Shown one piece after another: positions 35,132-37,549 of a stretch of DNA of 37,549 nt. The notes under the pieces are model-generated. The model saw nothing but the letters and a program-made list of their open reading frames with translations. It was not told where the DNA came from and made no database searches. Source of the stretch: Hyphomicrobiales bacterium (GTDB lineage: Bacteria; Pseudomonadota; Alphaproteobacteria; Rhizobiales; Beijerinckiaceae); contig JAFBAK010000357.1 of NCBI GenBank assembly GCA_019247795.1, positions 1 to 37,549 on the forward strand, read 5' to 3'. Position 1 is the first letter of the stretch. Every line of letters begins with the position of its first letter. A program made the translations under genes and the position numbers.

Positions 35132-35395
35132 ATGGCCAACACCACTTCGGCCAAGAAGGCTGCTCGCCAAGCCGTGCGACGCGCCGAGGTCAACAAGAAC
35201 CGTAAGAGCCGCGTGCGCACGCATGTGCGAAAAGTCGAGGAGGCGATCGCTTCGGGAGATGCCGCCGCGGCGCAAGCCGCGCTCAAGGCTGCCCAACCCG
35301 AATTGATGCGGGCCGCGCAAAAAGGCGTATTCCACAAGCGAACCGCTTCGAACAAGGTTTCGCGCCTCGCGGCGCGTGTGAAAAACGTCGGCTGA
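35132..35395 (+). CDS. rpsT: 30S ribosomal protein S20
   Basis: Protein of 87 residues, the family length, almost wholly helical and very basic. [38 protein letters not shown] is diagnostic, as is [17 protein letters not shown] near the end. AAGGAA lies five bases before the ATG. It is upstream of dnaA in the same direction, the arrangement typical of Hyphomicrobiales. Confidence 0.98.
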
Positions 35396-35614
35396 AGCTT
35401 CGCTCCGATCCCGACACGGCTATCCCGTCGCAAGCCGGTGTGACAATTTCCTGGATTCTGCACGTGTCGAACGGGGCGTCGTTCGCCGAAGCGTAGCGGC
35501 GCTGCACAAACGACACGCCAATCTCAACGCGGAATCGGAGCCGATCGGGCTCGCGACAGGGCCGCGAACATCGGCGCTATGGAACCCGATCCCAGCCTCT
35601 CCGTGGGTGTTGAT

Positions 35615-35623
35615 TTATCCACA
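35615..35623 (+). promoter_or_regulatory. Perfect DnaA box
   Basis: TTATCCACA matches the consensus DnaA box exactly. It lies about 700 bases upstream of dnaA. Confidence 0.8.
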
Positions 35624-35743
35624 GGCCCCGTCGCCGGGTCGCGCGCCGACACTTCGAGTGATGCGCGCTTCCGCTCAGGGAACAAGTGGGATTGCCACTC
35701 GCGTGAAGCAACCCTCAACTGAGGCGCGCAACCCGACCTCGAT

Positions 35744-35766
35744 CATGTTCCGGCTATATGAACATG
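35744..35766. repeat. Palindrome in the rpsT-dnaA spacer
   Basis: CATGTTC and GAACATG are perfect 7-base arms around a 9-base AT-leaning centre (CGGCTATAT). The GTTC-N9-GAAC layout does not match the alphaproteobacterial LexA site (GTTC-N7-GTTC), so the binding factor is unknown. It lies between the two DnaA boxes. Confidence 0.5.
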
Positions 35767-35857
35767 GAAATTTCAGTTGAGTCATGGGGTTGTCCGCCAA
35801 GAGTGGAAAGGCGGGGCGACAAGCCGTTTGCAACTGCATCGCGCGCCGGGCCGATGA

Positions 35858-35872
35858 TTAATTTTCGTTTAA
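35858..35872 (+). promoter_or_regulatory. Full CtrA-type site TTAA-N7-TTAA
   Basis: TTAA at 35858-35861 and TTAA at 35869-35872 are separated by exactly 7 bases, the consensus of the cell-cycle regulator CtrA. It is the only full site I found in the window and lies 15 bases before the second DnaA box. In Caulobacter CtrA silences the origin by binding such sites among DnaA boxes. Confidence 0.65.
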
Positions 35873-35887
35873 TGCGCTCCCCCCAAA

Positions 35888-35896
35888 ATATCCACA
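35888..35896 (+). promoter_or_regulatory. Near-consensus DnaA box
   Basis: ATATCCACA differs from the consensus only in the first base and has the full TATCCACA core. It is in the AT-rich patch next to the CtrA site. Confidence 0.55.
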
Positions 35897-36315
35897 GACT
35901 TGAATATGAAATATCCATGAGCCGCAACGGGTTGAGGAGCCGCAGCCGACGAAGCTTCGTGGGCCGCCGCCGACCTTGAAAACGAATCAGCGATGAGTGT
36001 TGCAAAACCGCAATTGCAGCGTTGCCGTCGAGATGCTTACGTGATGCGGCGAGAGGGCGGGCGGCGGCAGGCGTCATCGTCCAACGAAAAAACAAAACGG
36101 GCCTCGCCACCTGGAGTGGGCAATGACACTAATTGATGAACTGGGGATACTGCTCTCGTTTCCATGCTCACGTGTATTTTGTTCCTTGTATCGGAGTATC
36201 GCTAGGTTCGCGTAACGGCGTGAACTCCGTCTAGCTTCCGCTTGGCTTTCTGAATGTCCTGAACCGCCGCGTTTTTGGACCGATGCGTCTAATACGTGTC
36301 GGTGAACGGGAACGC

Positions 36316-37549
36316 ATGTCCGCAGCGAACCTCTTTGGCATGAGCGTGATGTTCGAAAACACTCTTCCGACCCGTGCTGGTGAAAAGGTCTCTCTCGGCG
36401 AACTCATGATGGAAAAGACGATCCGTCCAATCGCCGAACCGAGCCTTTCGGCTTCCGCACTCGGAGAGTTGTGGGAGCGGGTGCGGCGCAAGCTGCGCGC
36501 CGAACTCGGCGACGACGTGGTCGCAAGCTGGTTCGGCTCGCTCGAGCTCGCGAGCATCGAGGAAGGCGTGGCACGCTTGAGCGTGCCGACTCGCTTCCTC
36601 AAGAGCTGGATCGACACCCATTACGCGGAGCGGCTGCGCAAGCACTTTGCAGCAGACGGCAACGCGGTGAGTGTCGAGGTGAGCGTGCGCGGTGCTTCGC
36701 CGCAGCGAAACCCCATCATGCGCATCGGTGCCCGGCTCGCGGAAGGCGCGACTCCCTGCGAACTCAACGCCTCGCTGCGGCGTCCTCAGGCACGGGCTTC
36801 GATCGACGGTCGACAGGATAAGAGGCAATCGGAAATCGCGATGCCGCTCTCTGTCGCCGCGGCGCTCGACCGGCAACTGAACTTCGACAACTTCGTCGTC
36901 GGCCGATCCAATCAATTCGCCTGTGCGGCCGCCCGCAAGGTCGGAGAAACGGTGGGTGGCCAGGCGGTCTACAACCCTCTCTACATCCACGCGGCGGTCG
37001 GTCTCGGCAAGACGCATCTCTCGCAAGCGATGGCGCATTCTTGCGAGTCGCGCGGCATGCGGGCGCTGTATCTCACAGCGGATCGCTTCATGCATGGGTT
37101 CGTCTCGGCGCTGCGTTCGCAGACGGCGATCCAGTTCAAGGATCAGATGCGCAACATCGATCTCCTGATCGTCGACGACGTGCAGTTCCTGCAGGGCAAG
37201 ACCGTGCAGCAGGAGTTCTGTCACATCATCAACGCTCTCGCGGATCAACGGCGCCAGATGGTGGTTGCCGCCGACCGGCCGCCGAGCGAGCTCGAAGGCC
37301 TCGATGAGCGCATCAAATCCCGGCTGGCCGGAGGGTTATGCGTCGAGATCGGCGCCTTCGACGAGGAGTTGCGCCGGCGCATCCTCGAGCGGCGCATTGC
37401 CGCCGCGTGCGAGCGCGACCCTTGCTTCAAGGTGCCGCAAAACGTCATCGATTTCGTCGCCGCCTCAATCACGAGCAACGGCCGCGATCTCGACGGCGCG
37501 GTGAACCGGCTGATCGCGCATGTAAGCTTTGCCGGCGCGCATGTGACGC
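36316..37549 (+). CDS. dnaA: Chromosomal replication initiator protein DnaA, 3' end missing
   Basis: AAA+ protein that opens the origin. 411 codons are present without a stop; the gene leaves the window within domain III, and the DNA-binding domain IV is not seen. Domain I is ALGELWERVRRKLRAELGDD-VVASWF with RFLKSWIDTHY. The AAA core begins LNFDNFVVGRSNQFA, with Walker A AAVGLGKTH, Walker B LLIVDDVQFLQGK, sensor-1 VVAADRPPSEL, and RIKSRLAGGL carrying the arginine finger. AAVGLGKT in place of GGVGLGKT is a Hyphomicrobiales trait. The ATG at 36316 has GGGA upstream; ATG at 36283 or 36340 is possible. Confidence 0.93.
   Translation, partial: MSAANLFGMSVMFENTLPTRAGEKVSLGELMMEKTIRPIAEPSLSASALGELWERVRRKLRAELGDDVVASWFGSLELASIEEGVARLSVPTRFLKSWIDTHYAERLRKHFAADGNAVSVEVSVRGASPQRNPIMRIGARLAEGATPCELNASLRRPQARASIDGRQDKRQSEIAMPLSVAAALDRQLNFDNFVVGRSNQFACAAARKVGETVGGQAVYNPLYIHAAVGLGKTHLSQAMAHSCESRGMRALYLTADRFMHGFVSALRSQTAIQFKDQMRNIDLLIVDDVQFLQGKTVQQEFCHIINALADQRRQMVVAADRPPSELEGLDERIKSRLAGGLCVEIGAFDEELRRRILERRIAAACERDPCFKVPQNVIDFVAASITSNGRDLDGAVNRLIAHVSFAGAHVT

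Follow-up and report, generated by a model that had tools for sequence, protein, structure and literature searches.

A conserved cluster of DnaA boxes and a CtrA site upstream of dnaA in one genus of Beijerinckiaceae is probably a dnaA regulatory region, not the chromosome origin

Introduction

Two described systems of Caulobacter crescentus are closest to the locus reported here. One is the dnaA promoter region, which receives CtrA, DnaA, CcrM and GcrA inputs. Potential CtrA sites, DnaA boxes and methylation sites have been reported in this promoter, with CtrA suggested as an activator (PMC2217572), and the dnaA leader is 155 nt long (PMC4489657). The other is the Caulobacter-type oriC, which lies beside hemE and combines DnaA boxes with a CtrA site in an AT-rich patch.

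We analyzed a stretch of 37,549 nucleotides from a draft genome of a Hyphomicrobiales bacterium (Beijerinckiaceae; contig JAFBAK010000357.1), here referred to as the window. It carries a DnaA box, a CtrA site and a GANTC motif upstream of dnaA, and a long dnaA leader is plausible, so that the kind of arrangement is already known from Caulobacter; this likeness is one of described features rather than of aligned sequence. The locus differs from the Caulobacter dnaA promoter in that its sites are 460–730 bases distant from the start codon, the other genera of the family lack the arrangement, and the regulation is predicted. It also shares with the Caulobacter-type oriC the DnaA boxes and a CtrA site in an AT-rich patch. 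Unlike that origin, however, the cluster stands by dnaA with no parS nearby, has two boxes and one CtrA site, and marks no switch of replication polarity.

Results

The cluster in the rpsT-dnaA spacer

An earlier note, made from the letters of this DNA, had described a perfect DnaA box, a second box and TTAA-N7-TTAA upstream of dnaA. We found all three, placed and spaced as described, in the 953-base spacer between rpsT and dnaA. The main features are as follows.

35132–35395, + strand: rpsT (ribosomal protein S20), upstream neighbour, an 87-aa ORF
35615–35623, + strand: DnaA box 1, TTATCCACA, exact consensus
35858–35872, no strand: full CtrA site TTAA-N7-TTAA, TTAATTTTCGTTTAA, motif match
35888–35896, + strand: DnaA box 2, ATATCCACA, one mismatch to consensus
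36349–37549, + strand: dnaA, running off the contig end (ORF from 36283, 3' end open)

Box 1 is the sole exact TTATNCACA within the whole window, and TTAATTTTCGTTTAA is its single full CtrA site, none occurring in 100 shuffles. From the first base of box 1 through box 2 the cluster spans 282 bases, and box 2 starts 15 bases past the CtrA site, the distance that the note had given. Within the spacer, AT content over 40 bases peaks in the stretches that start at 35881–35885; they cover box 2 and sit just after the CtrA site. This AT-rich patch is modest (65% AT over 40 bases), and the strong boxes in the cluster number two.

As for rarity, the whole genome holds 10 TTAA-N7-TTAA sites in 4.95 Mb, or about 0.076 per window-sized stretch; the note had put the chance expectation at about 0.05. 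At least two NTATCCACA together with a CtrA site arose in none of 20,000 draws from a first-order Markov model of the spacer. The CtrA pattern read backwards, taken as a control, occurs 16 times genome-wide against the 10 true sites; the motif thus lacks genome-wide enrichment, and its significance must rest on conservation, rarity being insufficient.

Conservation within the genus

We aligned the rpsT-linked loci of the window genome and three genomes of the same genus (G001, G002 and G003). In all three, rpsT has a syntenic orthologue at 87–89%, and DnaA is 84–93% identical to the proteins of G002 and G003. Among the four species, box 1, both CtrA half-sites, box 2 and the GANTC are 100% invariant, as against 44% of the spacer. 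The sequence TTTATCCACA at box 1 is likewise invariant, while only 17% of the adjoining stretch is. The boxes are 273 bases apart in three species and 250–271 bases apart over three copies in G001, of which the rpsT-linked one has 271. Such conservation is strong evidence that the boxes and the CtrA site are under selection and are not chance matches.

Further conserved elements were found in the spacer.

35751–35812, no strand: conserved block (CGGCTATATGAACATGGAAATTT...TTGTCCGCCAAG), 65% invariant in four species, its neighbours 17–24%
35984–35988, no strand: GANTC, the CcrM methylation motif, invariably GAATC in the six dnaA upstream regions
36021–36045, + strand: candidate core promoter or operator with a GTCGAGATGCTTAC core, 76% invariant, including a 14-base invariant run
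36113–36127, + strand: ribosome-binding-like sequence with ATG, a possible short leader ORF (ACCTGGAGTGGGCAATGAC, 19 invariant bases)

We consider the 62-base block at 35751–35812 to be non-coding, since its reading frame is interrupted by indels between species in the alignment, which was read by eye. The conserved element near 36030–36045 could be a separate promoter; 36021–36045 contains no match to the sigma-70 consensus, and no sigma-70-like promoter was found at the box and CtrA cluster.

The start codon of dnaA is most likely the ATG at 36349, since ATGTTCGAAAAC is invariant in all copies; the in-frame ATG at 36316 falls out of frame in two relatives (alignment read by eye). The boxes then lie about 730 and 460 bases ahead of the start. 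Two other observations concern the interval between them and dnaA. An invariant GC-rich run, GGGCGGGCGGCGGCA, at 36055–36069 falls in the likely dnaA leader and is possibly a structural RNA element; no Rfam families were found in the window. The possible leader ORF occupies the region 36108–36213, and its encoded peptide is poorly conserved.

Three dnaA copies in a finished relative

Normally dnaA is a single-copy gene. The finished genome of G001 (an 8.2-Mb chromosome and two smaller contigs) contains dnaA in three intact copies, whose proteins are 96–99% identical.

C1:2281327–2282550 (L064)
C1:4443015–4444232 (L063)
C3:96000–97223 (L065)

One of them is linked to rpsT, one lies 2.2 Mb away on the chromosome and one is on a 336-kb replicon (C3). 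Box 1, the CtrA site and box 2 are kept before each of the three, with box 2 reading CTATCCACA in the second copy. The duplicated unit starts close to the rpsT 3' end and stops where dnaA ends, and a complete rpsT is absent at both extra copies. Because the sites retained in the duplicates are confined to that unit, the module belongs to dnaA and not to the locus. The extra copies are recent, as their identity of 96–99% indicates, so their independent evidence is limited.

These copies also bear on whether the cluster could instead serve, like datA or DARS, to titrate or reactivate DnaA and stand before dnaA by happenstance. In favour of such a locus, the co-oriented boxes are of high affinity, keep their spacing and lie far from the start codon, and they stay intact in the G001 duplicates despite the lost rpsT flank. 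However, there are two boxes only, the sites accompany dnaA upon duplication, and the CtrA site and GANTC point to transcription control; we therefore regard this explanation as unlikely.

The draft genome of the window itself holds a second, partial dnaA (G000:C172:14587–15390, L067), 88% identical and with a canonical downstream flank. Since both dnaA pieces carry canonical flanks, this one is probably from a related species whose contig was binned with this genome rather than a paralogue.

parS and KOPS polarity

The earlier note had left two readings of the cluster, an origin or CtrA/DnaA control of dnaA. Under the first, the main oriC of this genus would have been relocated from hemE to dnaA, with CtrA blocking initiation. 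The DnaA boxes, AT-rich patch and CtrA site do resemble the Caulobacter oriC, and the combination occurs at hemE in many relatives, whereas the hemE of this genus lacks a consensus copy of it (see below). The position of parS, however, speaks against relocation. It lies beside hemE and not dnaA in G001 and G002, 4–7 kb from hemE in G001, and is also close to hemE in several other finished genomes examined. In the window genome parS is on another contig (C339) with rho, gidA, parA and parB. The hemE/maf/rho/parAB neighbourhood of a hemE-type oriC is thus found elsewhere, and the site in the window is placed between rpsT and dnaA.

Replication polarity was read from G001. GC and AT skew over 83 sampled 20-kb stretches of this finished relative were too weak for placing an origin. 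Among 14,652 octamers in its sampled sequence, the most strand-biased, GGGGAGGG and GGGCAGGG, are variants of the KOPS motif; Azorhizobium uses GGGNAGGG in the same way, as KOPS (PMC2443382). We then compared candidate origins by 206 KOPS sites in G001, taking the terminus to lie near 7.08 Mb. Of these sites, 155 are explained by an origin at hemE (2.96 Mb), 145 by one at the rpsT-linked dnaA (2.28 Mb) and 144 by one at the second chromosomal dnaA (4.44 Mb), and relative to hemE the log-likelihoods of the two dnaA loci are −9.9 and −10.7. The best single switch point is at 2.65 Mb, 3.5 log units above hemE, which places the origin in the hemE-side interval and not exactly at hemE. Forward KOPS number 31 per Mb from the rpsT-linked dnaA to 2.886 Mb, about as few as in the left arm (36 per Mb) and fewer than to the right of hemE (62 per Mb in sampled sequence), which likewise speaks against an origin at dnaA.

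In the window, GGGNAGGG occurs five times forward and never in reverse, all towards dnaA, a small number from a fragmented draft genome. This suggests a fork that arrives from the left and moves in the same direction as dnaA. Were the origin at 35.6 kb, KOPS on its left should show a reverse bias, so these sites contradict such an origin, and no polarity switch is seen at the cluster. With only two good boxes in addition, a relocated main oriC seems very unlikely. The cluster is most likely not the chromosome origin, which in this genus maps near hemE.

The complete unit on C3 raises another form of the origin reading, namely that boxes, CtrA site and dnaA together serve as an accessory or dormant origin that supports secondary replicons, hence the copy on the 336-kb replicon. 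However, the main chromosome has a copy too, and KOPS polarity gives no preference to an origin there; we consider an accessory origin very unlikely. Thus, of the two readings in the note, control of dnaA gains from the conservation of the sites, their co-duplication with dnaA and the presence of CtrA and GcrA in the genome, and the origin loses by the parS beside hemE and by KOPS polarity.

hemE and dnaA across relatives

We looked for a full CtrA site in the 700 bases upstream of hemE in 30 relatives from across the order and found one in 15, frequently accompanied by DnaA-like boxes. None of the three same-genus species that have a hemE locus carries a full CtrA site or a consensus DnaA box in the stretch ahead of this gene. 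That stretch does hold weaker box-like sequences at matching places (TTATGCACC/G and TTATCGACA/TTATCGGCA), as well as a weaker box-like CGATTCACA in two of the three, and these are compatible with a weak-box origin. At dnaA, a full CtrA site is present in all four species of this genus versus 2 of 24 other genera of the family; among these 24, a perfect box is found in one, and a box and a CtrA site together in none.

In the draft assembly of the window genome hemE is absent (L092), though rho, gidA and parAB are present on C339. The missing gene is probably an assembly gap beside the predicted origin, and the region upstream of hemE was consequently compared in the sister species only.

Regulators and other CtrA sites

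The genome encodes GcrA and a single CtrA orthologue, 83% identical to Caulobacter CtrA. An intergenic TTAA-N7-TTAA and a CtrA orthologue in the same genome are thus both at hand, as for a CtrA-controlled promoter, and both conserved boxes upstream of dnaA, invariant in the four species, agree with DnaA autoregulation. Moreover, several of the other nine full CtrA sites precede ddl-ftsQ, rpoD, a Tad-pilus-like cluster and outer-membrane proteins (names from reading translations). Such putative targets are of CtrA type and fit a working CtrA regulon.

Discussion

Taken as a whole, the cluster is likely the regulatory region of dnaA and not the chromosome origin. We infer the binding of CtrA and DnaA, the sign of each effect and the promoter. 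DnaA on the two co-oriented boxes would autoregulate dnaA. Phosphorylated CtrA (CtrA~P) at the full palindrome between the boxes, next to box 2, would bring dnaA into the CtrA cell-cycle programme. The GANTC further downstream, probably methylated by CcrM, would add a replication-dependent input, probably via GcrA. The spacing from the CtrA site suggests one more element.

35886–35891, + strand: possible −10 AAATAT of a CtrA-dependent promoter, overlapping box 2

With this promoter, the CtrA site would cover the −35 and the putative −10 would overlap box 2, so that CtrA and DnaA may compete or cooperate, and a long leader would stretch from here to dnaA. The spacing between the putative −10 and the CtrA site is 2 bases shorter in G001. 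Several points count against dnaA control: about 730 and 460 bases to the start codon are far for classical autorepression, the cluster shows no sigma-70-like promoter, the extra dnaA copies of G001 are recent, and the arrangement is absent from the other genera of the family.

Possibly new here are two aspects, a shift of the CtrA/DnaA combination from hemE to dnaA that is specific to this genus, and the duplication of the combination together with dnaA. We tentatively propose, as a possible though doubtful account, that the point at which CtrA controls replication in this genus was transferred from origin to initiator gene. The origin at hemE would have lost its CtrA sites and consensus boxes, and dnaA would have gained a fixed box-CtrA-box module that travels with duplicated dnaA, including to a secondary replicon.

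Should CtrA act on dnaA instead of the origin, this would be a natural rewiring of the alphaproteobacterial cell-cycle circuit, with the same regulators at another control point. If true, it would allow a test of which way of coupling CtrA to replication, a block at the origin or a restraint on the initiator, is ancestral or sufficient, and the relative with three intact dnaA genes, each preceded by the module, would be a useful test organism.
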